DNA of 64,000 bases from Meghimatium bilineatum (Eukaryota > Mollusca > Gastropoda > Stylommatophora > Philomycidae). This document shows, piece by piece, positions 4,801 to 58,094 of the stretch. Location: NCBI GenBank assembly GCA_034231615.1, contig CM067306.1, positions 35,732,019 to 35,796,018 of the forward strand, in the 5' to 3' direction. Below the pieces are notes generated by a model. That model made no database searches and was not told the DNA's origin. It saw only the letters and a program-made list of their open reading frames with translations. Every line of letters starts with the position of its first letter. Within the stretch, counting starts at the first letter, position 1. The position numbers and the translations under genes were made by a program.

Positions 4801-7800
4801 GGTTCTGTTCTCTTTCAATAAAAACAGACCATGCAACTGACAGCTGGCAGTGTGTCCCTGACCAGATTATTATTTAAGGAGTACCAGACGACCTTTGCGT
4901 TGTATATTCTGCACCATATCGACAATTGATCTAGTCCACACTGTACACTGTCACAGATATCTATTCTACTCCTGTCCATGTTGTATAGTAGGATATCATC
5001 AGCGTATGTCAGAACTCTACAATTGCTTGAGGTTTTAAATTGAGCAATGTTTAACATATAGCCTACACATTAAACAGCACTGGGGACAGAGGAGATCCTT
5101 GTGGCAGACAAGGTGCTATTATTCTGATCTTAGACCCAGGATTAGCACTTCAGAGCGTTTATACAGAATAATACATATGCTATCCAGCATATGATCCAGG
5201 GATGGATATCGTGTTCCCTTAGTATGTTGACAAGATGGGTGTAACCAACTCTATTGCACGCATATTCTAGGTCTATCGCTGCAACTACATATTCTTCTTA
5301 ATTCTGAAAACCTTCATAAAATGTTGTTTTTACTGCTTGTAATGATTATTTGTAATAATTAATATATTTAAAAATTATTCTATAAGCACCCTATTCATAA
5401 TATTAAGACTATTTATAATTAGATATAGCCATGATATGAATTGTGTGTTTTGAAAAATACCACCTCATTCTATCTATCTAATGTCTTTTCTCTGCTTGTG
5501 CTGTGAGGCATCGCAGGATTGAATGACGATCGGTTTTTGGGCTATGGCACATTTGGTCACTTGATATGCAGTAATAATGTGATGTCTCAGAATATTGGTA
5601 ACTCCTTATGGTCTATCAAAAGCTATCTATTGACAGCTAAAGAGATTATTTCATCACCATAATCATATGGCAAGAGCTAACTGCTCACAGCTAAAGGGAT
5701 TACTTCACCATCATCATATGTCAAGTGCTAAATTTTTGCCTATACACGTTTGTCCCAAAAATGGGGTAAAAGTGACGTTTTACAAATGTTAATAAATTCT
5801 AATTCTACACGTAATTGTATTGTTTCAATACTGTCACTAATGTAAGATAGATAAATAAGTTATACACTGCTGCCAGTTTGGTCTCTCATAGTTAAGTCTA
5901 GTTGTCAGAATATGCTTAAAATTGTCTGTATGTTTGCCCCCAGCTACCTTATATGATGGCAAAAACAATGATGATCATTCTATTGTATATGATGGCAAAA
6001 ACAGTGATGATCATTCTATTGTATATGATGGCAAAAACAACAAGAATAACATACTTGAGGATGTAGAATGGCTGCCATAACAAAAATGCCAACAACTGCG
6101 ATGAAAAAGATGGTAGTTACAGAACAAAATCCATAGTCTGCGATCTGTCTGATGAGGCCGACAAGGACTATCATCATGAGGATGGCATAAATGATGGACA
6201 CAATAGCTGCAAACTGAAGCTGTAGAGATAATATAATATGCAACGTTAATTTATCCTATACCATAGCTCGCCACACCAGGAAGGCCTAAAGGTCTCATAA
6301 ATGATCTACTGGACGAACAAATGTAGGTCTGAAGGTTTCATAAATGATCAACCTTATCAACAAATGATGAAGACCTCATAAATAAGCTACTGGACAAATA
6401 CATGTGGAAGATATGAAGGTCTCATAAAGGACCCACCGAACCAACACATGCTGAAGGTCTCATAAATATCTATCAAACTAATGCACACAGAAGGTGTCAT
6501 AGATGTCCCATCACAAATTTCCACTTTTGGAAGATCTAATAAATTTTGTTTTAAACTGGCAGATGAGGGATTTAAAACTAAAGTTTCCATCCCTAAAACT
6601 TCCTTTTGTCTCATCCACATGTTGGTGTAATTGGTGGTGAGTATATTCTGTTACTTCTTAGATATGACTTCACTTGCGCTACTTGATTTTTGGAGTAAAG
6701 ATCCTTATGTTAGTGGGGCAAAAATTTGCATGCAAATGTATGAGAAATAATTCTTCAGTAAGTTCAATGTCATGAGGAAATTGCAGATGCTGATCCAAAG
6801 CTGGGAGAGATCAATATATATGATTATAATAATTATTCTATGTTAGAAAGACATAATTAGCTTTGAAGTGGAACTTACCATTTTTTTCTAACATATTTTT
6901 CTGATTAAGGTTACATAACTACACAAAATTTTAGTGTTTTATAATGTTCACATAGTGCAGCTATGTAAAGACACACAGTGAATCAATTATTTGACAGTTT
7001 TTGTCAATTCTCCCTCGATTTTATAATCGTTTGTATCACCTTTATGCCCGCAGATCTTTGCCCCTTCAGATGGGGCAGAAGTCCGAATTTACATAAATTC
7101 ATAAACTCTCATTCTATTGTCTACCAATGAGTCATTTATTGTCTATAGGTAAATTTTAGGTTTTCAATACCCTCACTAATGTTAGATGGATAGATAGCTA
7201 TACTAATGACAGTTTGTTGTCCCATAGTTAGGTTTTAGTGTCAGAATACACTAAAAAGTGTATAATGCAGATCTTTGCCCTCACCTACCCTATAAATAAT
7301 TAAGCAATACAAATTGTATTAGTTATCACAAACCTGTATGCTTGATTTTGCTGTAAATACCAGCACAGTAAATAGGATAACGGGAATAAGATTAATAATC
7401 AAACTTCCAAAAAGAGGTATGTCAGGGTACGCTGTATTAACAGCACCGACAATCATTATAAAAATAGTCCCTGGAGTCAAGATTGAGGATGTCATCATGG
7501 CCATTTGGTAGGCTATATATAACAAGGATATGTCCTCATTTTTCTTGGTCACCGTTCTCCAACTTTCAAGTAAATCTGTGAAAGACAGAAGATCACATCT
7601 TAACTCTTAAGAGTCCCTACAGGATATGTAATTGGTATGCTACTTAATACTAGTAATATCAAATGCAGGGTGTAAAGTTTCTGTGCACTCATTTACATTG
7701 TTGGTGGCACTATGTTACATGAATTGTGGGTCTGCAAACAGAAATCTGTGATTGCATTAGCCATACTGGTTTAGCGCGGAGTTGTCTGCTAATGATGTGC

Positions 7801-10800
7801 TATTTCTGTGATGACACAAAAGATGCTTAAACTGTAACAGAATTTGCATGGTTGTGTGCATAACATTTTGAAAGTTTCAAAAGTTGAACTGTTATCATGT
7901 GATGAGGCCAAATCTGCCTAACATGTACCACATATATCACAGCCATGCTGTAAACCATCACACAATGTATTCCATTCTCTGGACTACATTCAGAAAACCA
8001 GCAGGAACAAATTATTGCTGAAAGTTAAATTATGTCATGCTATAAGCATTCCAGTATTAAAGAACAACTACATCATTGCATGCACACAAAGGTAAATGTA
8101 TCATCAACTTACCCAGAACATTGGCCATTGTTGAAGGTGCCCACCTTCTTCTTTGATTATAAAACTCATAAAACCCCTCAGGAGCATAGGTGAAGCTGTC
8201 TGAAGCAGCACAGTATTCAACTCTATAGCCTTGTTGAAGGAGTAGAGTACACAACCACCTGTCCTCACCTGTTAACAAGTATTTGAATCGAGTATTTAGC
8301 AGGTATCAGTATGTTATTTGTCTACCTGTAACACATATTACCATTCTGAGGTAATAACCTGATCACTATCCATCTATATTGTTTTGTTCCAACTTAGTTC
8401 AGGGTTGCAAAGAATAGGGCAACTGTCTTTTCCAGGCATGTCATAGGAGATGACTAAGGAAAATTGTGGGATAGGCTGGCAACCTATCACCTATGAAAAA
8501 AATCATTTTTGTCACATCTGGTCTCAATATTTTACTTTTGTCTTCTATCAAATAAACTCCATAGATAACAATGAGATGCAGGCCAGCTGACAGTGCACCT
8601 TTGTCCTTTTGTGACAGACTCCTAGGTGATGGGGAATGTTAGATGTGCCATCACTGCCGAAGGGTCAACAAATTGGACAGAAGAATGGCCCAGAAGTGTG
8701 TGCTGTGTTTCTGGCACGACATGGGATACTGGTATACCTCACCTCATGGACTAAACATGAATCCATAAAACCCCTTACACAACTATGCCTTTGAGACAAC
8801 CTTATATGTGTCAGGGTGTCACCTCAGTTACACAACTAAGAAGAACCTGTGCTTTTATCAGAAAGACCATGAGCTGTCAAGAGCTATCTGCTCATAGCTA
8901 AAGGGATTATTTTTTCATCATCACCTTCATCTAGGTTCCTTCAGCATCGAATACTGAAGTGAATAGAGAAGAAACCACTGCTCTCTAGTTGGAGTGATGT
9001 AATGCTGTGGTCTCTCTAGTTGGAGTGATGTAATGCCATGGTCTCTCTAGTTGGAGTGATGTAATGCCATGGTCTCTCTAGTTGGAGTGATGTAATGCCA
9101 TGGTCTCTCTAGTTGGAGTGATGTAATGCCGTGGTCTCTCTAGTTGGAGTGATGTAATGCCGTGGTCTCTCTAGTTGGAGTGATGTAATGCCGTGGTCTC
9201 TCTAGTTGGAGTGATGTAATGCTGAGGTTCATAGTTCTTGCATATTATTGGAACTCATAATCATCATCATGAAACATGGTGGATATGCGCAACAGCTTTG
9301 AGCTCCTGAAACTTTCGCAAATGTTAACCAGCTAGAGATGTGTTTTCAGGGATTTTGTTATTTTTTTCCTATTCATTGGATATTTCTTGTGTATTTATTG
9401 GATATTTCATGGACATATTTAAAAATGTTTATTTATATGTGCACACATGAACTGTTATAAATGATGTTTACAATAGTATGTGTATTCATTACATTGAATA
9501 TCAAATACACAATATCGAGTGGTTATCTATTGTCACACTTTTTTCGTGGTGTGGACTATGACTAGCTTTGCTCAGAACATTATAATTTGTGTGTATTGCC
9601 TCCCTGCACATGTCACAATTAAAATTTCCTTTACAACTGTGTCTGCTGAAATGTGCTCACTGCATCCCCGAGCAGTACTCTATAATGGTTGTTCTGTAAA
9701 AAGTCTCTCTTGTTCTTTCTCTCGCTTTGCCATCCGGTACCCTTTTTTAATGCTTGTAGTGCAAGTATATTTTCATTATAAATATGTATAAAGCGACATA
9801 TTCTTTCCAGAATTTTGTCTTCATCATGGCTTCTCTGAATGCATTGACCAGAGATATATTTATACATTTTTCGATGACAATAGTTCATCATCTTCTTGGT
9901 CTTCCTCTTTCTCTCTCTTGTCTGGCACTCAACCCTCCAGAATCAGCCTTTCGATAACATCATGTCGCTTTAAGTGTCCAAAATACTGTAGCATCCTTCT
10001 TATGATGGTATTTAGAAGTCACCCTTCATTTAGTTTCAGTAATTTCAATGTTCTTCTTTTTTCTCTGCTCATGATATTCATAAGATCTTTCTGTAAATTT
10101 TCACTTCAAGTGAATTTATTCTTCTGAATATTGTCTTGTTTAAAGTCCAAGTCTCACATTCATATGTTGTCACTGGGAAAACACATGATCTGAAAAGGAT
10201 TAATGTAGTATGGTTATTACTACTTTGCCACAGCTTTCTCATTTGTGTTACTTTGAGTGTTGCAATTGAGAGTCTTCTCCAATCTTGACTAAACAATTCC
10301 CAGAACTGTTTATATTTTCTCTAAAAATGAATTTCCCCTGTGCTGAATATTTTTCTTGTCCTACAAAATAAGAGACCTTCCACAGAACTGGATTTTTATT
10401 TACACCAGAAATTATATACCGCATGGATATGATGCTTAAATATGACACTTGTGAAATATCATTTTTAGCAATGAGGAGTTAGAAAACCAAGAAACCAGTT
10501 AACTCATCAATAGCTGTCAGATGGAAGAACGAATAAACTCACGCATAATAGCTAAAGGGTTAAGAGTTTTCTTATTCTCCGTCTTATGGTCCATGCCTTG
10601 TGGCATTGGTTGTCATGTATTTCCTCATTGTTCTGTTTCGTGTGCTGACAATCATTTCTTCTTAATAGTCCATGCCATATTGCGTTGGTTTCATATCTTT
10701 CCACTGCCTTCTATTTCGTGTCCTATCAATCATTTCCAATACAGATGTTCTCCCATGCCGCAATGCTAAACTGTCAATTATCTTCCCTCTTGATTTTCCC

Positions 10801-13800
10801 TTACCCCTCTTGCTCTTAAACTTGCCTGTTGTTACAATGTGTTTCATATTTTCTCTTCTCATGATGTGTCCAAAAACATGAACTGTCTCTTTCTGATGCG
10901 GGTAAGAAGTTCTGTTTTTGAATTAACACCTTTCAAGATATCTTTATTTTGCTTTTTATCTGTCCACTGTGTTCTTAACATTATTCTATAAGTTTCCTAA
11001 GGCATTTATTTTCAAATCAATCTAATTTAGTACATAATACTAATAAATATCATACAAATCAATAAAATAATATGAACACAGAAACAGATGAAGGAGTTTG
11101 GATTTGTCACACATGTTTCTTGTGCCAAGCATTGGAGTTATATTTTCAGCTCAAGATTAGTTTTTCACTTGCACTACCTGTTGAATTATAATCTGGTTTT
11201 CTTACTGATGACAGCTATTGATGATTCATCTGTGAACTCTATAACATCACCATTTCCTGAGTTATCAGCAAAATAATTTCATGGTCTGTTTTTCTATTGC
11301 TTAACTCTCTACATGCTGCCCCTCACTCTATATATGTTGCCTCACTCTCTACATGTTGCCTTACTCGCCGAGAGTAATTATTAAATAATGATGTAAATGT
11401 ATGATCTCCTGAGAACGGTGCTTCTTACCTGCTTGGACATGGAAACATGTCTACCGGACCACAAGAGTGTCTTAATAACAAAATCTCTTTGGTCTTAATA
11501 ACAAAATTATTTTACCAGACTGAGATCAAAAAAGGTTGAAAAGTTATACATTAGAGCCTGCATATTTACAGTTGCAGACATAGAAATAAGAAGAGGGGTA
11601 AGACAAGGATGCATTTTATCACCAAGCCTATTTAATATCTACACAGAGAATATCTTTAAAAATATAGAAGAAATACCAGGACTAAAGATCAATGGGAAAA
11701 TAATAAACAACATTAGATATGCAGATGACACTGTTCTTTTAGCAGAAAGTGAACATGAACTACAAAGACTAATAGATCAAGTCAATAAATCAAGTAATGA
11801 ATATGGACTGGATATAAACATTCAAAAAACAAAAACCATGATAATCATTAAAGACACAGAAGAACAGGAGGTAAATATAAACATACAGGGAGAGAAACTA
11901 CAACAAGTAAAACAGTATCAATATCTTGGACACATAGTCACAAATGATGGCAGATGTGAAACAGAAGTTAAAAGGAGAATAGGAATGGCTAAAAGTACCT
12001 TCAATGACATGAGGAAATTATTAATATCTAAACAAATTACAAACAAGTTAAAAATGAGAATTATAAAATGCTACATCTATTCCATATTAATGTATGGCTC
12101 AGAAACATGGACACTAAATAAACAATTAGAAGACAAAATTGATGCCTTTGAAATGTGGGTATATAGAAGAATAGGGAGAACATCATGGAAAGAGAAGAAA
12201 ACAAATAAAGAGGTGCTAAAGACACTTAATATGAAGAAAGAACTACTAAGAGAAATAAAGATCAGGCAAATAAAATACTTTGGACACATTAAAAGACATG
12301 ACACCCTATTGAAGACCTTACTTGAGGGTAAAGTCAAAGGGAGGCGAGCAAGAGGTAGGCAGAGATACAAATGGGAGAGTAACATTACACGATGGACAGG
12401 TTACAGTCTAGCAGAGTGCACCACCAAGACAAGAGATGTTGGAGATACGTTGCAGCCAACCTTCGTTGCGGAGACGGCACTTGATGATGATGATTTACAG
12501 TTGCAATATATGGATGTGAATCATAGACAATCACCAATAAAGTTAGAAAAAAAATTGTAGCATTTACAACAAACGTTACAGAAGTATCCTCAGAATACCA
12601 CGGATAGACAAAATCACCAACATCCTGAAAGAATTGAATGTAAAAGAAAACTGGTTAAACAAGCTTCTCTCCATAAATCTGCAATATTTTGGCCATATAA
12701 AATGGCACAATAGCCTAGAAAAGATCACAATGGTGGGGATGATTCTATGGCAGTGAAAAGAAGTAGGTCATGAAGAAGATCAATGCAAGACATCAAAGAG
12801 CACCTGAAAATGACACAGAAAGCAGAAAGGTTAGCTCAAGATCTGCAAGAGTTTCGAAAGAATGTAATGACTGCTACATCCTGTCCTGGATATGCTACCA
12901 GATGAAGATTGATGTAAATAGTGATTTGGTTAGGTAAAATGTACCTCTTATTGGAGGTATGCTCCTTTCAACCGCAGATGTTAGTCTAATTTGATTATAT
13001 CAGAGCTTTACAACCATACAAAATAGTGGAGGTTGCACTTCTGGTAATCCAGCCACCATGGCCTCCTAAGTAGTATTAAAAAAGTCATAATCAAATTACC
13101 TTGGTCATATTGCACATAATGTCTGGCAACAGATGGAGGTGTGGCATATTTCCTCATCACATTGTCATCCATCAGGCAAGAGCCACGGAACAAACTGAAA
13201 CAGCCTGGGCTACAAAGTACACAACCAATCACATGCTCTGTTGCTTTTTGCAACCAATGGCTGATGGCGTATTCAAATTTCTGATACCAGACCATAGGCC
13301 CTGTGGAAAAATCAGCATTAAATTATTGTAATGACATATTTTATATTATATAGTAGATTATCTGGTTCCTAGCACAATAAAAGCAGCACTGAATTATTGT
13401 AATTTTACATTATGTAGATTAATTGGTTCCTAGTGCAACAAAAACCAAGAGGAATTATTCAGGCTGTCAGTCAATAAAATAAAAAAAATAGATGCTTGCA
13501 GGGTCATAGGAATCGCTACTTTCATCACTAAAGATGGATGTGTCTGGGCATTGGCAAAAATAAAATGACACAGCAATATATTTACATTCTCTGAACTACG
13601 CACATCCTGATGGAAATCTAGTGGGACCATCCTGCTGCAAGAGACATCCAGTAGGAGTTTGAGAACAAACAGTCAGAAACACTTTCAATGGTAAAATTAC
13701 AAAAAACTTGCATGGTTTGAACATGTAAACCTACATGATTCCCTATAAAAAATGATTCTGCAGGAAACAGATGATGATGGAAGAAGCAGAGAATGCCAAA

Positions 13801-19800: not shown

Positions 19801-22800
19801 TGTAGACTGTTTCTGGTCTATCCATGACTTTCTAGCTATTTTCCGCTGTTGAGTTGCTACATTTCACCTCTTTTCACAAGATGAATCACCATTTGTTACT
19901 GTAGAGCACCATGTTGATCTATTTTGTGCAAGTTCTGCCCATGTATTTTGGTCTATTTCAAAGGCTTTCAATGAAGTTTTTAATAAGTCCTTGAAGATCT
20001 TCTTTTGGCCACCTTGAGATCATATACCCTTTTCCAGCTCACCATAAAGAAGTATCTTTGGCAGGTGATATGGTCTGGTATAGGAATCAAATTACCCGTC
20101 CAACAAATTTGTGTCTGCATCAGGATAGTGTCAATGCTAGGGATACCAGATCTGTCAAGGACAGTGGTATCTGGAATCTTGTCTTGACATCTGATGTTCA
20201 TAACTTTTCTCAGACAAGTTATGTGAAAGTGATTGTGTTTCCTCACATGATGTCTATACATAGTCCATGGTTCACTAGCGTATAACTGCACTGGTCATAC
20301 CACTTTTGTGCTATATCGATAGCTAAATTTTCAGCTTAGTCTGTAGGTTAAAGCCATTTCTATGTCATATAAATGCTTACAATCTGCAGAAAGAGGTTTT
20401 TGCCTTGTTGATCCTTGTATACATTTCATCATCAACGTTGGCATTTTGTGATAAAGTACTACCTAAAAAATGGGATACATTATTGATAAAGGCCTTTTGA
20501 TCAAAACATCAATTCAATTTGTGTTATATTTTCAGTGATTAGAAAAAAAATATATTATATATCAAATAAGTTTTCACATAACCTCTGTATGCCTTGCTGA
20601 ATCAGGGAAGAAGGAGGTCTCTGGAACTATCTCTTGTATGAGTCTTATAAAAAGATTGTTTTCATAGCATCTGCCATCTCTGCTGTCTATCTTCCGTGTG
20701 GATCTTCCCATTCTTTGTATCCAATGTATTTAAACAGCTGCTATATGTCCTTCTATCATTGCTATCATTCTACTATTGCTGTTAACTGTACTACTATTGC
20801 TGTTACCTGTACTACTATTGATGTTACCTGTAGTACTATTGCTGTTAACTATACCACTACTGCTGTTAACTGTACTATTATTGCAGTTAACTGTACTACT
20901 ATTGCTGCTAACTGTACTATCATTCATATCAGTCAAACTATTGCTGAAACTTATACTGTTGCACTTATATTTCTGCTTTGCACTTATATGTCTGCTATTT
21001 TTATTAATATATTTTAACATTGGTAGCATATCCTACTGAAAATGAAGCCACCGGGGATCTCCCTAGACTAATGCTGTTCGCTTTGAGCTCATGAAGTATT
21101 GTGTTCAATTACCACTTGCAGCACCAAGTTTACAAAGTGAATTTTTGTGACCAGTATAAGACATGGACCTGATAAAAACGCTCTTGAGAAAGATTACAAC
21201 ATGCAAAATGAAATGCCTGAGAAAGGCTATAAATGTCATCAGAAGAGACTGAATGAGAAAAAGATTCATCAGAAGAGACTGAATGAGAAAAAAGATATCA
21301 GAAAGTTAGTAAAGACCATATTATGCAAACAACATATAGAAAGCCAGCAGATCAACTGGTTCGGACACATGCGAATGAAACCATCACAACCAGCCATCCA
21401 GGCATACAACAGAAGAAATAACTGCTAAAAATCAAGAGAAAGACCAAGAATGAGATGGGAAGATTCAATCAGAGAGATTGTTAAAAACCATGGTATAACC
21501 ATGGTAAGCACAACAAAGATGGCGAAAGACAGAAAACTTCAACTCCCCACGACATGTGATGGCATTTGTGGAAAAGACGATAAATAGACTGCTAAGGAAA
21601 TATCTTACCCTCAAATTCATAGTAATCTGTATCAGCCTCGAATGCCTTCATAGCTATTCTCCTTGCACTTTGGTCTGCATCAAGTCTGACAATTGATCGA
21701 AGCATCTAGAAATTAAAACATAATGTGTAGTTTTAAAACAATGTGGGTAGCACACATCTTATTCATGACACAGTGATAAACCCAGAATTTCTTAGTCGTG
21801 GTGATTTTCTGGAAATTATCTATGTTCTATAAGATGTCACTCATTTATGAATGATGAGGATGCACATCTGCCTGCATTGAAAATTGAACTTAGTATCTAG
21901 AATTTCTAAACCTCACTCTGTAAACTCTCCATTTCAGATCCGAACATAATTTGTATTACTGGGATTAATAGTAAAATAAGTATAACTGGAAGGTTAATAC
22001 AAGAAATATGACTATGCATTTCTCTAATGTGTACATTAGTGTTAAAATACTAACCAAGACTCTTAGTAATCTCAACATGGTGAATCCTGGAAATTCTTCT
22101 TCTTCTTCTTTCATTTGCTTAAAATTTTATATCCTGGAAACTGACAATTCAACATTTAAAGATGTGTCTGGCCGATATTTAGGAATCAAGCAGAGAGATT
22201 TGCTGACATCCCAGATGAAGTACAGCTCTAAGTACCACTAAGAAACCAACACTTCTCATTGAGCTTTGGAATCCTGAAAGTTTCCATGTTGGTAATAATA
22301 GCTGGGGGGGGGAATGATGTAAAACTGTTGCCCATAGGTAGAAACAGAGAACACAGTGTAATATGTTTTACAGTTAAAACTAAAGACTACCTTTTAAGTG
22401 CCTAACTAGTGATAACAAAACAAAAATACTGAATTAAACAAACACATAGAATTTAACAAACACACTGAATTGAATAAACACACTGAATTAAACAAACATA
22501 CCAAATTGACATTCCAACCACAATGCCTTTGTCAATAAAAATTAAAAGGCAGAGAACAATCAATAAAACTTTTAGTGCTAAAGGAAATAGCCTGTAGAAA
22601 AACTCGGGTTGTGATTTCTCGCTTAACACGACCACTCCTCCAGTCGACTCAGCTGTAAATGAGTACCTGACGCATGAGTTAAGGGAGGTAAAGACCGAAA
22701 GAAAGGGAATTGGCCACCCCACCCAATAGTTGCTGCGGTTTAGTACATGAAGAGTTATCTTCATACCCAACGGCAGGTATGTACAAATGACGATGACTCT

Positions 22801-25800
22801 TATTCCATGATTAAAATAAAGGAACTTGGTTTGAAATGTGGTGTCGCTAGAAAGGAGAGTTTCCGTGGGTAAAAAAGAATGATGGTCAATCAACGACGTA
22901 CCAGGACTTTATGTCAACATGTAATGGCGGATACACTCACGGAAAGATGTGAGCACCTATGGACTTGTCCAGAGTGCAATGACGATGATCCAACGACTAA
23001 CTAACTAAGGTTGCTACCATAGGACATACCTTTACCTTTTACTAGTCTGTAGACCAGTGGGGGCAAAATACAACACACAGGCCAAATCCAGCCAGACATT
23101 TGTTTCTGGCCCACTAAAAGTACTTAATGTGTGACCTCAGACATACTACTTGGAAATTCTTATGACTAAAAACAAGTTTTTATGGTTTCATACTACATGA
23201 AAGAAGTTCATTCCGGCCCGCGACCCAAAGAAGGTTGCTATCCTGATGATGTGTAACCCAAGGAATTTACATCATGCCTGTTTAGTTTTTTTGTTTGTTG
23301 TTGTGTCTGTACTTTGATCCAGGCATTAACCTAACCACAAACTTAAAAGTCTATAACACCATTGAGGTCACTACCACGCTATACACTTGTGAGACCTGGA
23401 AAGTGTACAGTAGACATCTTTCTATGTTCCTTCAGCGCAGTGAGTTCCTTAAGTGAAAACGACTTGCCGGAAGACAGAAGAGGTACTTCAAGGAGTCTCT
23501 CAAAATGTCTTAAAGGGCTTCAACATCAACGTCTCATCCTGGGAGTCTGTAGCTCAAAATCTCCCAGTGTGTCAGCATCGCTGAGAATAATAAAATCTCA
23601 GAGGCACAGAGAAGATGTGTTATCTGAAAAGACCAAACAACAGACACAAAGATGCCCAATTCTAATAATACGTGTCCCAAATGTGACATGGGATTCTATG
23701 CCAGGATTGGACCTTTTCAGTCATGTCACATGCCAGAGAGATGCAACAACACAAGCCTGATACTGTTGTCATCATTGCCTGTGTTAGATGGCCATTACTA
23801 TTATAATTATTACTTCAACTAGTCTATATTTCACGATAGCAAATAAAGTATGTGATATATAAATATATTTTCTAGCCCAAAAGGGAAGCACAAAAATATA
23901 TGTAAGAATAAGACATCATAGTGCTACTTTATGAGTCAGCTGATGGTTTACACAGAAGTCGTCAGTCAAGGAATCGGTAGAGGAAGCAGACTGAAAAACA
24001 TTTGCACATAAACTAGTGATCAAATCCAGTTCACTTAACCTTTAATGGCTTTCATATAAAGCCACCCATCTATAAACCCATAATCAATCAGGGTAGTAGG
24101 GGTTCTACATTGGATGAATCAACACGCAGTCCTCCAGCAATTTATATTTTTACCAGTGTGGATGAATATAAAGAAATCGAGCTGTCCAGTATCTTATATT
24201 GTCTACCCATGATTTTGTCTTGCCTCCATTGCTTCTTCTACCATCAACTGTACCCTGCAAGATTATTTTTGACAGGGAACCATGTTGCAATAGATGTCCA
24301 AACCATGCAAGTTTTCATCCCAAAAAAAATGTATAATGAATCCATTTATGAAATTATGTTTTTAATTTCTTTATTTTAGTTATTTATGAGCAACCCCTCT
24401 TTCAATCAGGTTTTTTTTTTACAAAATGTATCCAACTTTCTTCATTCCTTCCTAGCTCAACAGTATCCTAATGTTCTTCATTCCTCTCTAACTCACCTTT
24501 ATCCTAACTTTCTTAATTCCTACCTAACTCACCTATATCCTAACTTTTTCCATTCCTGTCTAACTCACCTGTATTCTAACTGTTTTCATTTCTCCCAAAC
24601 TCACCTGTATCATTTCATTCTCTGTTTCATGCCACATAGTTGCACAAATGTACACATAAGGTGTATAATCTGTTCTATTGCGGGAGGTATCAGCCAGGTC
24701 AAATGTACTGTCATCATCTTCATTCAGTTCAAAATTTGCCCACGGAGCTTGAATTATCTATTGGAAAACATTATATTGTAATTAAAACAGAAAGCTTTGA
24801 AACTATAAAGCTCTATCCTAACTCACATGAGATCAAAGACAATATAGTCTCCTTGAGAAATGAGTTGCTGTATATTACTGGGTTATATATATCAACGTGG
24901 ATAGGTAAAACTGAAGTAGTACAATTAGTAAACTAATGGACAAAGAGATATAAACTACATTAAATTACCAGTGAGAACATGTTATGAAGTTAAAAGCAAT
25001 AAATTGATAACACTGATATGTTCCCCTGTGGACAATCTGCAGAAAAAACAGAACATATTATAAAGAACTGCCCACTGTACAGCACAACAAGAATAAAACT
25101 GTGGCACTGAAAAAATTCAGATGGACAAGCTCTTCACCCTATCTCTGAGCTATTAACCACAGTTCAGTTAGTTGAAGAAATCCATATTCATATATGACTC
25201 TGACAGGACAATGAAGAGGAAGAAAGAATTTTAAGCAGGTATAAAAGGACAAGCAAAGAGCGATACCACAAACCTGTTTAAATCATGCATGTGTTGTCAA
25301 CTGTCAGCAACACAGGCCACAACAAAATGCGGCAGTGAAGTATACATCATGTTTCCAGACATCGCATACAAATAATCCATTGCCACAAGAATAAAATGCA
25401 CAAATTTTAGGGCAGAGGCAATTGCCATACTCACTGCTATTCAAATATTTAACAACCGAGCCCATACTCCAAAACATTGCAATCTTCAGTAATTCATGAT
25501 CAGTCTTACAAGCCATCTAAAGTACGAAACAAGACAAACTCATTCACAACATCAGACAAAATATCTTTGAATTATCTAGAACAACCACATTAGTACTACA
25601 ATAGATAAATAGATAGCAGCTCAATGTGGCATCCCTGGTAATGAAAAATGAAAGACAAATTGTCAAAAACAGGAAGCAATCTCTCTCAGACCCACATAAC
25701 TCATAGCTTCAGGGAAGTAGTGACTGCTAAAACAGTCTATGTAACTTCAGTGGAGACAAAACAAAACAGAAACTATAGTCACAAGCAAGACAACATTAAC

Positions 25801-28800
25801 AAATTTAACAGAAATTAACAGATCATATTTTGACTATGTATGAAATGAGATATCTAAGAAAAACAGAAAACAGAGCAAGAAGAGATCATGTGAGAAATAA
25901 GGAGATTACAAGAACTGTTGGAACAACCCCAATGGTCAAATATATTGAAAAACAGAGATTTAAATGGCTCAGCCACCTAATGAGAATGAAGACTTATTGG
26001 CCAGTGGCAAGAGTATACAACATGAAAATGGAAATAGCATGACACAGAGGAAAACCAAGAATAAGGTAGGTTAAAGCAGCTACCAACATTATTACATGGC
26101 ACAGTATTACTGCATATCGAACCACCAAATGTGCAATAGCCCGAAAACCGATCATCATTCAACCTGTGATTCCTCACAGCATAAGCAGAGAAAAGACAAT
26201 AGATAGATATTTTGACTGAGAACATGACATTGCCTTCTAAAAGCACACTTACGCCAATCAGGATCAGTAATTCTGCAGCCTGCATCTACGGAGCAGCAGC
26301 ACAGACACCAGAACACATACTATAGAAATGTCCCAGTTTTGCTATTTACCAAACGACAATCTGGCCCACAGGAACTTCTATGCAAAACAAGTTATGGGGG
26401 AACCAACAATGACCTAAAACAAACTGCTCTATACATGACCAATATTGGACTGGATGTTTAACAATTGATCGCAGAAGAAGAATATAAGGCATGAGGAATA
26501 GACAGAAGAATTAAGTTAAATTAAAGCTAAATTGTTTACAATGAATTTTTTGTGAGTAAAATTATGATTACCGTAATCAATGTATTTTAGACATGAAAAA
26601 TCAATTCACTATGACTAAAGTTATTTTTTTTAAATCATCTGTATGGCAAGAGCATGATCATGACATTTTCGTAAACTGACACATGTGACAAACATTGCTT
26701 CTGTAAGTTTTTAAAAGAATACTAGTTAAGCTGGCCTAAAGTTATGGACAATCAAGGTTGTTTAAAACTGTAATCAGTGCATTTTCATTGTCGATTTACC
26801 TTCTTCTCTTGAGGCACTCTATCTCTTGATCTATAGAACACCAAAGATTGTTCTAGAAGCACTCCACAGTAGAGAGGTTTAGAAAACAGCCTGAAAAAAC
26901 AATAATTGATGCAATTTATAGATAATTGTTAGATGGAAGAAATAAAGAAAACTATTTGAGGTAACCTATTTAACTAAAATCTGGAAAACAGGCTAGAATC
27001 TGGTTCTACTAATCTACACTCAGAATCCTGATATAATGCCAACCAGGCATGACCACCAATGACAGACAATGTAAAAACCTTCAGACATTAAGTATCTATC
27101 TATCTATTTTCTGAACCCTTTGTTGCCTTTCAGCGTCAGGGGTAGAAGAGTTTTCTGGAGATGGCTCTCTTGTGTGCTGAGTATATTGTGGAATTTGTCG
27201 CCTCTTTAATTTCGGTGGTCCATCTTTTTCATGGTCAGCGTCGTCTATTGTTTGTTTTTGTGAATATAAAGTCTATCTGGCTCTTGCATTCCAGGCTGTT
27301 TCATTTATACCATGTGTACACTTGTGATTGTCTATGTTTATAAAGAAGGTGTAATTAAGTATCAGCTACATTATAAACCAGTTTTATATAGGTATCTTTA
27401 TCCCAGTTAGTGAGCTCTTCTGGGAGACTTTCCAGAAAGGAAGCATCATCTTCCCAAGTTAGACATTACTCTTGACTGTAGTGATATGTGATTAAATTAA
27501 CTAACACCACTGCACACCTGATGCACCCACAAGCCAACCTGTAGATACTTGGGTCGGGGAAGGTTGTAGAGTTAAGGCCTCAAAAGATGGTATGCCCCCC
27601 CCCCCTTTTATATAACTAGAGCACTATATTTATTTATTACTCCAAAAAAGAATAAGACACTCTTAATCTCCACCCCCCCCCCCTCAATTTTTTAATGATA
27701 AAACTTCCTGGGCTATAGTAGTTTCACAAAAAAAGATCTCTGAATACCAATATATTTTAAAGTGAAAAATGCTGTTTATAGAAAAGCAAAAATCTTTTTT
27801 TTAGGAATTAACCCTTTTAGAGCTGTCATATCTATGCCCTTGTCCCAGGTGTTCAAACTCTTTTTTTTCAAGATTGTGAACTATATGTATATTGATAGTT
27901 CACGTAACTTGCTAATTTGTGTTCTCCTCCATCTCCTTCTTTCTCTCTTTGTGCACAATTTCTAATTCATGAAATCTTAATTTAAAAACACTTAGGGCCT
28001 ATATGGAACAAAATGAAAGCTCACAAATGCATAGACTATATCACACAATGGCATTGGGCCAAAGAACATGAGCCCATGGGCCGCTGGATCAGTAACCAAC
28101 CAAACCCTACTTTATTGTAGAATTGATTGTTGCTCCAGAGCAGTGAGCTCCTTACAACTGGGACCATACTCAGAGTATAAAGTGTTACATCATCTGTCAG
28201 GACTTACATACATCACCGTTGATACTTATCAAAGATTATATTAGATTATACTCTAAGAATTATTTGAACAATAGAGAATCCATACAAGTTACACAACTCT
28301 ATAAAGTGCATTCTAAATTTCCCAGTGAATATTCATGCAGATGACATTCTAAATTTTCCAGTGAATATTCATGCAGATGACATTCTAAATTTTCCAGTGA
28401 ATGAACTGCGTCACCTGCATATCTACTTTCTGTCACCCGCTGTTCTCGGATGTTAAGACTCTTACTATTTTCTTAATAAAAGGATAAAACTTGGTATGGT
28501 GCCTCTTATCTTTTTTTAAGATTTAATCTAATGTACCTCTTATTGTGAGATAAGCTTCTTTCAACTGTGGACATTAGTCAAATTGGCTATATCAGAACTT
28601 TTAACTATAAAAAATAATGGAGGCCGCGTTCTGACAAAAAAAACAGTTACCACACCATCTGAGATTAAATATGACGATTTTGTGATCTCTTACATTTCTC
28701 ACTATGCTTTTGTGTATGGCCTTTTGTGTAAGGTAAAGGTAGATCCTGTGGTAGCAACCTGCCATCAGGAAGAAGATACTCTTCATGTACTAAGCACCAG

Positions 28801-31800
28801 CATATATTAGGCCAGTTCCCTTCATTGCTGTCTTGACCTCCCCTAACTCATGCGTAGGTACTCATTTACAGCTGAGTCAACTAGAGGAGTGGTATTGTCC
28901 AGCGAGAAATCACAACCCAGATATTGTTTTTTAGGTCCAGACATGGTTTTGAACCTGGCACGCTGTAACCCAATGATAGCAACTAGGCTACCGCGCTCCT
29001 GTATGGCCTAGATGTTCAATAAATATGAGTAGAGAGCATCCTTGTCTTACTCCTTTCTGCACATTAAACCAATCTGATGTTTCCCCCATCTACTTCTGAC
29101 TGCTAATTTTTGTTTTGGTTGTGTACAGCATCGCTATTATTGGCATATTACTCATAGTAAAGTATGTACGCATGAGTAGGTATTTTATGAATCCTTTGCA
29201 GTTTGCTTAGCTAATAATTACTGCCTGACTACTAATTGTCCCCAGTTAGAGATGTAGGCCTAGTCTAAAGTTTTGGCATACTCAATAGAACAGGCATGTA
29301 AATCGATGTTGCATTCCTACATTTTTCTATAATAATTATCATATGGAATATGTGATCTCTTGTGCTTCTGTCAGACTTGTAAATCATGTCTGTTAAGTTT
29401 GTGCTTCCATGAAGCCTTCATCATCATCATATTTTATAATTTTAATGTTATAATAATATATATATATATAATAATAATAATATCATTACAAGGGATATTA
29501 TCAAACATATGTATTTACGACAACTAAAACTGACAACTTCTACATTGTTGATACATTTTAAATCAACAAACAAATGTCTTCGAGTTTATATTTAAGTAAT
29601 TACAATAACAATATCTATGAAAGCAGGTTGTATGTTTTTTTGAAACGACTAGTAATACTTACATGTGTGCATGCGCCATTCTGCGCGTCTGCTCTCTAAA
29701 TATTTGCCGGCCAATCAGAAGGTATGAAAACAAGACAATTACACTACTAGCAAACCAAAATTGTTCATTGTAGACATGGAAGAAATTTGACATGTCCTCG
29801 ATAGGAGATATCCATGGGAAGTTGCAAGAAAACAAGATTCTGTGAAATTAGTGAATTTAAAATAATATATTCATTTTGATAAATTTGTTTGGGCAGTTAA
29901 ATTATATTTGCAAATTATATGCATGAATTGAAGATGGGTAGATTACCTGGCATATAATAAATATTTAGTGTGTGAAATTGTACAAATTTGTGTTCTGCTA
30001 AAGTTAGAATGTTACTAAAACAATCATATCTACAAAGGTATCAAGATAATACATGCTGGCATATTTCAAAACTCAACAGCAATATCAAGTTTTGTAGAAT
30101 GCATTTGATCGCAGTTAAAACTGTAGGCTATTTGTGCTCTGGGTACTCGTGGGCACGAAAATTAATAAAGATGCTAAGCAGTATGTGTACTGTAGTCTTC
30201 TTCTTATGGTCCATGCCGTGTGACGTTGGTTATAATGCTTTCCACAGCCTACTATTTCGTGTGGTGTTTTTTTTTAATATTGGGGATATTTTTCTATGCT
30301 GATGTTCTCTCATGCCACAATGCTAGGTTATCAAGCATCTTCTCTCTTGGTCTTCCTCTGCCCCTCTTGCTCTTCAACGTGCCTATTGATACAACAATTT
30401 TAATATTCCCTCACCTCATCTGTTAAAAGATGTGGACTATCTGATTCGGGAAAGAAGTTTTCTATTGGAATTAACCTCTTTCAAGATAGATATCTTCATT
30501 ACGCTTTTTATCTGTCTATGGTGTTCTTAACATTCTTCTATAAAACCACACCTCTGCTGTCTCAATATATTGTTCACTATTTTACTGAACGTCCAAGATT
30601 CACTTTCAAACAGCAAAATTGGTTCTATATAATTTCTAAGAACTCTCTCACCTCTACAGGCACAAATATATTTCATAGGATGGTCTTCATCTTGTGAAAT
30701 GTTGTCTTTGTATGGAAAATTCTACATTTGACTTCTTTAATGCATCGTCCATCTGATGTTATTAATGCACCTAAATATAATATTTTGACCTGCTTCCGAC
30801 TGATCCCATCTACTGTGATGTTGCATTCTAGAAGACATTTGTTCTTTGAGATTACCATTACTTCAGTTTTTCTGCTATTCAGACTAAACCCAATAGTAAC
30901 CTGCGAATAATGAATACGCGATTGCTATCATCAAGGATAATTAATCAGAGCTGCCAAGACATTTACTCCATCTTCAAACGGTGATCATGAATGACAGGCC
31001 ATAACTGAACAGTTTTATTAAAGTGTAGAAATTAAAGAGTGAAGGTTGTCTGGTGTCCAAAAATTCCATAATAAAATTCGATACGTCAATCTAAAGTGCG
31101 TAGATAACACAGCTAAGTCTCACCTTATAGTCATAACATGAAACCTTTTTTCACGATCACAATACAAGAACACAAATCTCATCTTCTGTTTACAACTTTA
31201 AAATGTAAATTTGTTTTCACTGTCACAAAATGAAAACGCAAATCTTATCTCATGATCACAACATGAAAATACAAATATTATCTCACGGTCACAACATGAA
31301 AATGTAAACCTTATCTCCAGGTATCAAAGCAACCACATTGCTCATATATAGTTTCATTTACAGATGACATCTGCAAAGTAGCAAAGACAATGAAAGAAAA
31401 CAATATGAAGGATAACTTCAAAGAATTACAATTTGCAGAAAACTAAGCACTAGTGGCATCACCAGAAGAGCAACTGCAAAGACTAATAGACAGATTACAT
31501 CAAACATGTCAAACCTTTAGCATGATGGTAAATATAGAAAAGACCGAAGTAATGAAGATAGGAAGAATAGAAAGAAATACCAATATATATAGCTAACAAC
31601 AGACTTGAACAAGTGCCAGTATTCCCATACCTAAAAAGGTAAAATAGCAACAAACAGCAAGAACAGCAAAGAAATACTCAATAGATGTAACAAAGCATAC
31701 TAAGCCCTAGAGAAATGACACACAAAAATGTAGTTTTAAACACCAAAATAACACTATTAGAAACGATTATTTGCCAACACTGTGCTACCAAAGCCAAACA

Positions 31801-43800: not shown

Positions 43801-46800
43801 ATGTTCCTGTGTAGCATGTACACGATGCTTCTATGCAATAGTCCTGCATGATGATTTCGTACAGAGTCATTCGTTATGGCTGTTGGGATATATTATTTGT
43901 TGCTTTGTGTATGTTATATATTATTTGTTGCTTTGTGTATGTTATATATTATTTGTTGCTTTGTGTATGTTATATATTATTTGTTGCTTTGTGTATGTTA
44001 TATATTATTTGTTGCTTTGTGTATGTGTCGTTAGACGATTAAAATCCCGGAAAACGTTGAATATACCATGATAAGTGACGCTGCATGAGTTTGCAGTGCG
44101 AAAGCTCTCATAGAGACGTGCATGGTTTTCCGTAAGATATGGTTCAAAATGGGAAATCTCCGATATTTTTTAGTAATATATCGCTCCTCCGATATCAGTG
44201 GAGATGATTTGATATAAGACGATAGTTAGAAAATGAGATAAGATGTAAAGATTGTTTCACAAGTGACTAGTTGTGAGTAAATCTCTTCGACCCCCCCCCC
44301 CCCCACCTTTCTCTTTCTGTTATTCGTGCTACAACCATGTATCTATAAGTCTATGACTATGACAGCACCTGTACGTCATCACAAGGAAAATGAGCTTGGA
44401 TAAAACGCTCGAGCCTAGAACGAGTCCAAACAGCAGAGCACAAAAGACGAGTTTTACAACAGCGTTAATAATCTTCCATATCCTCTGTTCAGACGTTGAT
44501 GAGGTTGTCTGGTCTCTGTCTGTTCTGAAGATGTCCCATCTGAAGAATATAAAACAGAAAAATATATAAATGAGAAGGACAAGTTGAAAGTGTGGAGGAC
44601 TGACTTCATTTTACTCGGATTACCGCATATTTGCTCCGTCCATCTCAACGAATCGGCGGGCCGAGAGTACCACTTATAACATGTAACTCTCTAGCTTCAA
44701 GAGATACCCAAGAGGTGATTCATAGATAAATACAGATAAACCGAACAATAGATGCTCAGTTCTATGGATATATCGTGACACAGACAGAGATAAGGGAAGA
44801 TGATTACACAGACTTTTAGATTGATAGAACGGCAGATAAATATAACAGACATAAAGCAGACTATCAAATATATGTGTCATCGCATTTCCAAAAATTGGTT
44901 GTTTCTCAACATCAGGGTTTTATCTATATATATTTATTATATTATCGGTTGCATACAATAATATCTCTCTATACATTTCCTTTATTCTCGGCTACACACT
45001 GAAAAGATCTCTCTTTATATTTCCCTTATTCTCGGTTACATACAATAATATCACAATAAATAAAAAATTAACACATTTGTAGAAAATTATTTTTAAGAAG
45101 TAGCCATCAACCCAGAATTTTCATGGCTGGTGTGATTCTTTAAGTTAGGTCCGATGACGGCCACCTGCTGTTGGTGATGAAGTTAACTCTTCAAGTACTG
45201 AAACGCAGTAATTGTTAGGTTCCAAATAGAACGGGGTGCAAATGGAACGCATTGCTCTCGGCGGATCCAGGGTTAGCAGATAACCAAGATCCCAAATGTA
45301 CCTCCTCGCGGTGCACCCTGGAAACAGAAATACAGCAGCTCGAGCTGATTCTGGCCACATCATTTGGGGATCGTGTCCGAGAATGTGGAGGTTGCAAATG
45401 GAAAGAGATTTGACTGCATTAGAGACAGACAATATCTCCGACACAATCAGCATCACCACATAAAGCGACACTGTCGTCATACAGTGACGCTAGTCAGTCC
45501 AGTCCGAACATTTGAGGGGTGGTCAATGTAAAAGGCACGTAAAGGTAGATGCATGGCGAGAGACAAATATATTTCATACTGAGTACATTGACACAATGAA
45601 AGGGCAGTACAGCGCCAGAGGGCAGCACGAACAGCAAATAGAAAGGGAAAAGTTCCTAGGAAAGGGGAACTATAAGCTCTGTTAGCTCGAGACGAGCTTC
45701 TAGCTACCTGTGCTCCTTATAGGCAGAGACCTAGATCCAATCATGGACGTTCGGAAAAGCAAGAAGACCTAACCCTACTCTAATGTTGAGCTTTCTCAAA
45801 TCGGAAATATGTTCGCGAAGAGAAAGGGTTCCGTACCCGAGGGGCTCAGGTAAAAAGGGACAACGACGGCAGTCCTGGCCCAACTCTACTGGCAAGGTTT
45901 TCTACACCGGAAATACACTTGCAGAGAGAAAGGGTTCAGTACCTAATGGGCTCAGGCACAAAATGTACAACGATTTTAGCCCTGGCCCAACTCTACTGTC
46001 AAGCTTACCTATACCGGAAATACACTTGCAGAGAGAAAGGGTTCAGTACCTGATGGGCTCAGGCGCTATTGGGACAAGGTCGCTCAGCTCGAGAACGCCT
46101 TGCTCTCACACCACGCGTTTAACTTGGGCCAGGGGTTCACGATGTCTGTTAACGACGCCTCGGATGGAAGGGCGAACGAGCCAGGGCCCAACTCTTCTGA
46201 AGAGTTCTTCCTTATACGGAACCAGGCTCACGGATAAGAAACGGTTCAGTACCCGATGGGCACAGGCACAGTACGTCCAAATGCATGAGGTAAGTTCATA
46301 GACGGTGGAACACCTCGTGCCAGATAGACGCGCTCGACAAGCGTCTTTGCGAAGAGACACTACACACCAGCGTGCCCGGCGACAAATAGACAGGCTGTCA
46401 CGGACTAGGGAAGCCTACCCGAATTAAAAGCATGACGAAAACGGATGTGCTGGACCTCGGATGTCCTGACCACAAGTGGCCAACCGAGGTACAAATAACA
46501 CAGTTCTACTGTAACTTGCAGCACAACGTACTTCACTCTCCCCGGCGGAAATCACACGATGTATTCGTAGTGGTTATATGAGAGCGAACGCTGAAGAAGA
46601 AGAAGAAGAAGAAGAAGGTGCCGTGGCCAGTTCCCTTCCTTGTGGAGTTTACCCTCCTTATCTCATACGTCAGGTACTCATTTACCGATAAAACTCCTTG
46701 TTGCCGAGAAACAACCATGTACCGTAAATTCCATGGCTGGGGAAAATTAAGAAATGAACAGAAATAGGTACAAGAGTTACCAATATTAGTAAATAAAACA

Positions 46801-51774: not shown

Positions 51775-52215
51775 TTTTCCGGGCTGCCTTCCACGATGTA
51801 GTAAGAAATAGTTTGTCAAAATCTGTCTTCCATGATGTAGTAAGAAAATAGTTTGTCAAAAGCTGTCTTCCATGATGTAGTAAGAAATAGTTTGTCAAAA
51901 TCTGTCTTCCATGATGTAGTAAGAAAATAGTTTGTCAAAAGCTGTCTTCCATGATGTAGTAAGAAAATAGTTTGTCAAAAGCTGTCTTCCATGATGTAGT
52001 AAGAAAATAGTTTGTCAAAAGCTGTCTTCCATGATGTAGCAAGAAAATAGTTTGTCAAAAGCTGTCTTCCATGATGTAGTAAGAAAATAGTTTGTCAAAA
52101 GCTGTCTTCCATGATGTAGCAAGAAAATAGTTTGCTCCGAAGCTGTCTTCCATGATGTAGTAAGAAAATAGTTTGCACCGAAGCTGTCTTCCAAGATATA
52201 ATAAACAGTTTACTA
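51775..52215. repeat. Minisatellite, 40 bp x about 10
   Basis: Unit 'gctgtcttccatgatgtagt' plus 'aagaaaatagtttgtcaaaa'; edge units are more diverged. Confidence 0.95.
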
Positions 52216-57914: not shown

Positions 57915-58045
57915 TTAACTGTCAAGGACACTGACTCAAGCTATCTGACGAGCACAATAACTGTCAAGGACACTGACTCAAGCTATCTGACGAGCACAAT
58001 AACTGTCAAGGACACTGACTCAAGCTATCTGACGAGCACAATAAC
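57915..58045. repeat. Tandem repeat, 42 bp x 3
   Basis: Three identical units 'aactgtcaaggacactgact' plus 'caagctatctgacgagcacaat'-type remainder. The period keeps the frame (VKDTDSSYLTS repeats), but no gene context is seen. Confidence 0.93.
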
Positions 58046-58094
58046 TGGATTCTGCATTTGCTGCTGACTTCTCCCACTTTTGCCTGGTAGTAAA

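Follow-up and report, generated by a model that had tools for sequence, protein, structure and literature searches.

Results

The window analysed here, a stretch of 64,000 nucleotides with a GC content of 0.370, carries a chitin synthase gene on its minus strand. Fourteen exons were given splice boundaries, although one lacks a placed acceptor; those of exons a to f were judged by eye, and those of exons g to o are backed by a joint frame. Exons g to o, which run from 24757 down to 6055, form one stop-free frame of 496 residues. The predicted spliced product contains the domain that would define a chitin synthase, Pfam Chitin_synth_2 (PF03142; E = 2.2e-24; residues 200-430 of 496). Furthermore, the joined protein matches four sequences of solved structure, from residue 214 onwards; one is a hyaluronan synthase, and the other three carry the name chitin synthase (best E = 4.1e-11).

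The boundary of interest is the 3′ end of exon g (24605..24757, minus strand), called exon 8 in the initial annotation. This exon of 153 nt, bounded by AG/ATAATT and ATACAG/GTGAGT, joins eight further exons in frame and supplies residues 1-51 of the joined protein; it encodes ...YICATMWHETENEMIQ and ends in ENEMIQ. It is followed by an intron of 2899 nt and by exon h (21609..21705, minus strand), whose acceptor, TTTCTAG/ATGCTTCGATC, was fixed by the joined frame and is in phase 0, so that ENEMIQ is joined to MLRSIVRL. As exon g lies outside the Pfam match, it is tied to the chitin synthase by its frame and by sequence motifs. CATMWHE resembles a strand-and-loop element where GT2 enzymes bind the nucleotide, and the earlier label of “CATMWHE helix” therefore seems imprecise to us. 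A chitin synthase intron also harbours, on the opposite strand, a reverse transcriptase fragment (11502-12557, plus strand; Pfam RVT_1, E = 7.1e-21), and a stretch at 28700-29000 (minus strand) resembles, by eye, a tRNA-derived short interspersed element.

The intron between exons g and h opens with a 36-bp tandem array (24427..24611, minus strand), described by TRF as 5.2 copies of period 36 with 78% matches; a further TRF row of period 72 scores 237, against 207 at period 36. Units start at 24604 (unit 0), 24568, 24532 and 24496, followed by a degenerate fifth at 24460, and the array also takes in the last seven bases of exon g (GATACAG, 24605-24611). Units 0-3 are alike at 27-30 of 36 positions in pairwise comparisons (75-83%), and the fifth unit resembles them at 22-25 of 36 positions in the same register. 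When the unit pattern was sought with at most three mismatches, all five matches in the window fell inside the array, where 100 shuffles gave an expectation of 0.00. TRF, the unit table and the shuffles together bear out the initial annotation, which had placed a 36-bp tandem array at the start of this intron. The difference of 17-25% between units 0-3 suggests that the array is neither recent nor an assembly artefact.

We found no dispersed relatives of the unit in the window. Indeed, alignments of the unit outside the array, over the whole window and both strands, scored at most 23, no better than the 24 obtained with the reversed sequence as a control, and a dispersed repeat family was rejected at this scope. 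Upstream of exon g, the preceding intron holds a stretch at 24826 that resembled a collapsed unit (GTGAGTTAGGATAGAG; the sequence there reads GTGAGTTAG); it was absent from the best off-array alignments listed and was set aside.

Along with the repeat, the 5′ splice site itself is repeated. The authentic site, CAG/GTGAGTT (24598..24607, minus strand; donor G at 24604), forms a U1 duplex of -12.2 kcal/mol, and copy 1 (24562..24571, minus strand; donor G at 24568) has the same sequence and the same energy. Copy 2, TAG/GTGAGTT (24526..24535, minus strand; donor G at 24532), and copy 3, AAG/GTGAGTT (24490..24499, minus strand; donor G at 24496), reach -10.6 and -10.7 kcal/mol, respectively. Copy 4, CTG/TTGAGCT (24454..24463, minus strand), is dead, with TT in place of GT at 24460 and -1.6 kcal/mol. 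The three intact copies are those proposed initially as decoy donors, at positions that we confirm; their GTGAGTT part also stands, while the preceding triplets, given as AAG or CAG, are to be corrected to CAG for the real site and to CAG, TAG and AAG for the copies.

By U1 base pairing, copies 1-3 are strong. Only six of the 3739 GT sites of the strand are as stable as the authentic donor or more so, counting itself and copy 1. Ten other donors of the gene, a set that leaves out those of exons a, c and e, range from -4.0 to -10.3 kcal/mol, and copies 2 and 3 exceed all ten. Units 0-3 show no variation in the seven GTGAGTT columns, and this might reflect selection on the donor copies; such invariance has a P of 0.029 at that place and of 0.44 for any seven adjacent columns, and we did not find the case for selection convincing.

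RNA structure does not seem to hide the copies either. The exon end and array are little structured as RNA: of 200 shuffles, 194 fold with equal or greater stability (z = +1.8). Over a longer stretch, the predicted openness is 0.26 for the real donor and 0.62, 0.40 and 0.43 for copies 1, 2 and 3, which makes the real donor the least accessible of the four, and masking by structure was rejected. None of the features computed here gives the real site an edge over copy 1, since the two pair equally well with U1 and the copy is predicted to be the more open. The advantages left to the real site would be that it lies next to the coding exon and is transcribed first. Where tandem donors are nearly equal, the acceptor-proximal one is often preferred, and copy 3 would then be a strong rival of the real site.

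Use of the copies would have contrasting coding outcomes. Isoform translation agrees with what had been stated for the first and second decoys: splicing at copy 1 (+36) would add 12 residues in frame, VSLGEMKTVRIQ, and splicing at copies 2 or 3 (+72, +108) would run into a stop at GTG AGT TAG. Unit 0 is free of the TAG found in units 1-4, and its frame is therefore open. As a single base change in TAG is enough for this, an open frame in one unit could easily arise by chance and says little about decoy use.

These outcomes raise the question of functional alternative splicing, in which copy 1 would give the longer isoform and copies 2-3 a poison extension that reduces expression through a premature stop and decay. 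The pairing energies are consistent with this proposal, as copy 1 matches the real site and the other two intact copies surpass the ten other donors scored. So are the greater predicted openness of copies 1-3 and the open frame of unit 0, which would place the 12-residue insert in phase. The composition of the array points the same way: purines make up 0.736 of its 178 intronic bases on the gene strand against a mean of 0.491, a level reached by none of 2279 other overlapping intron windows, and this purine-rich sequence (74%) holds two GAAGAA and five AGGAA motifs that resemble enhancers. However, the insert would fall in the helix that presumably follows the CATMWHE strand and loop, in what is probably a conserved catalytic region, and the open frame is easily explained as above. 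The lancelet parallels discussed below are, moreover, reported to splice normally. Altogether, we consider functional alternative splicing unlikely. Bolder still is the idea that the 36-nt unit is a portable exon end, an enhancer-like purine-rich tract followed by a strong donor, and that the array works as a copy-number dial of splicing. We regard it as a long shot; were it true, more units would shift splicing towards the 12-residue-longer form and stop-containing transcripts, and minisatellite length would set the dose of the enzyme.

The copies might also act without being spliced, as extra U1 sites that aid exon definition or shield the 2.9-kb intron from early cleavage. Three strong U1 matches, none more than about 110 nt from the real donor and all in little-structured RNA, would suit such a role, and a downstream 5′ splice site can bring SRSF1 and U2 snRNP to the upstream acceptor (PMC8724738). 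Yet no donor scored surpasses the real one, which copy 1 alone equals, and it would hardly need help. We regard this role as quite improbable.

How far the repeat extends into the exon bears on its origin. The initial annotation had the repeat begin inside the exon end, and this stands for the seven bases GATACAG, beyond which the match is unclear. The CAG of these seven belongs to the donor consensus, and the four bases before it are matched at none of the 75 other CAGGT sites of the strand. In register, the array and the exon agree at 16 of 33 positions; 0.5% of the window does as well, as do 2 of 117 other windows taken from exon g. A gapped match of exon and array has a P of 0.002 when anchored at the exon end and of 0.09 as an unanchored local match. 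Homology of about 7 nt thus appears secure and anything longer doubtful. Of the proposal that the exon-intron junction had been duplicated, we retain a minisatellite spanning the junction; the duplication of an exon stretch is weakly supported.

The two ends of the array carry the same short word: its exon-side end starts with GATACAG and its far end finishes in GGATACA. This arrangement would fit slippage between short direct repeats, and we infer that such slippage between GATACAG and GGATACA accounts for the array better than the copying of a longer exon end would. An unrelated minisatellite that simply ended at the exon, resembling it through the donor consensus, would be a chance neighbour. 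Arrays are common in the window, and the exon matches by four bases beyond CAG and no more, both of which this reading would accommodate. However, the real donor and the first 36 intron bases themselves constitute unit 0, identical to unit 1 at 28 of 36 positions; the array therefore includes the intron start rather than merely abutting it, and we judge a chance neighbour very improbable.

The merging of TRF rows with a period of at least 15 bases gave 25 minisatellite-size arrays in the window. When the 21 arrays starting below 45000 were placed randomly, a mean of 1.43 of the 27 exon boundaries fell inside an array (P = 0.75), and with a slack of 20 bases the two cases observed compare with 1.92 expected (P = 0.56). 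With arrays this common, a hit on some exon boundary needs no special cause. Arrays that reach just 1-10 bases into an exon across its donor are seldom produced by random placement (mean 0.058, P = 0.056; 20 arrays, 13 exons), a point against the explanation favoured below. No array was observed to cut deeper into an exon, where the simulation gave a mean of 1.69 and none in 17% of runs; among surviving arrays, coding constraint would favour the abutting pattern. The window is rich in minisatellites for its 64 kb, and several are nearly perfect (8981-9222, 43888-44026, 51783-52204 and 57916-58047). Another 36-bp array (5950-6040; 2.5 copies, 96% matches) lies just downstream of exon o, whose last base is 6055; it starts at intron base 15 and is devoid of a copy of the exon o donor.

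The 27 boundaries of the chitin synthase gene were also scanned for duplications. Besides the exon g donor, low P values were obtained for the acceptors of exon h (0 of 150 shuffles) and exon o (P = 0.013). A stricter test of exon h, with two probes and two scorings, gave P values of 0.012, 0.063, 0.0017 and 0.0033, and 2 of 411 other segments did equally well. As 27 boundaries were tested, the exon h signal was not counted. The matching stretch (21905-21878, minus strand) lies within the intron that precedes exon h, some 190 nt upstream of the real acceptor; its 28 bases match the exon h acceptor boundary at 22 of 28 positions, with ILSSIF facing MLRSIV, and it is perhaps a decayed copy of the start of exon h.

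Discussion

We consider it probable that the array is a minisatellite of the kind known as a mirage, which arose by slippage with the donor as a passenger, and whose donor copies are tolerated while splicing takes place mainly at the real site. In the ancestral gene, a second GATACA(G) would have stood near the start of the intron, 36 bp downstream of the word that closes the exon. Slippage during replication, or an unequal exchange, from one of these short repeats to the other may then have duplicated the 36-bp block, and the real donor, lying inside it, would have been copied along. Further slippage would have brought the array to about five units, among which units 0-3 have since come to differ by 17-25%.

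Under this proposal, main splicing is predicted at 24605/24604, and any use of copy 1 or of copies 2-3 should be minor. The copies may be tolerated because exon definition across the 153-nt exon and the order of transcription favour the first site. We judge the array to be mostly neutral and predict little decoy use. The strongest argument against a silent array is that the computed features give the real site no advantage over copy 1; in addition, the intact copies match or surpass the ten other donors scored, and the RNA is little structured.

The locus offers a natural test of donor choice, with several near-equal donors spaced 36 nt apart in a near-identical context within one gene. Junction reads alone would tell apart the effects of transcription order, exon definition and acceptor distance.

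Minisatellites at exon-intron boundaries have been described in human segmental duplications, where boundary internal tandem repeats have a mean unit of 30 bp and about 4 copies; cryptic splice sites can be activated there and new introns form (PMC2812944). The array described here is likewise a minisatellite at an exon-intron boundary. The human repeats vary between recent paralogues and are supported by transcripts, whereas our array is known from genomic sequence. Intron gain by duplication of AG/GT proto-splice sites, an idea cited in the lancelet study (PMC3087553), also involves splice signals duplicated in tandem, as here. Unlike that process, the array sits in an existing intron and no new intron is seen. 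The worm minisatellite CeRep25B is enriched near alternative splicing and is not a boundary repeat (PMC4039745).

The closest parallels are the mirages of lancelets, which are tandem duplications of exon-intron boundaries. The original study describes them in Adh3 (units of 10-72 bp) and in the globin genes BflGb6 and BflGb9 (150-160 bp), with many repeating AG/GT signals; the Adh3 data and that study's globin RT-PCR suggest that they leave regular splicing undisturbed (PMC3087553). A second study adds troponin C and PGBD5, the first 108-bp repeat of the latter abutting the 5′ splice site; it reports that the mirages of Adh and troponin C yield no aberrant mRNAs, and extends this conclusion to PGBD5 by inference (PMC3902484). 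As in these mirages, a unit of minisatellite size includes a splice boundary and repeats its signal. Indeed, both structural features of a mirage are present: a minisatellite-size repeat spans the boundary at 24605/24604, with an exonic share of 7 nt, and its units carry copies of the splice signal, three intact donors and one dead. The array differs from BflGb6, whose units are 81-100% identical, by the 75-83% identity of its units 0-3, and from the lancelet cases in general by its host, a chitin synthase gene, and by an exonic share that is secure for seven bases only. If the host organism is not a lancelet, the array would extend the mirage cases that we found in print to another lineage. 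It is a useful natural experiment and another case of a mirage rather than a new kind of element.
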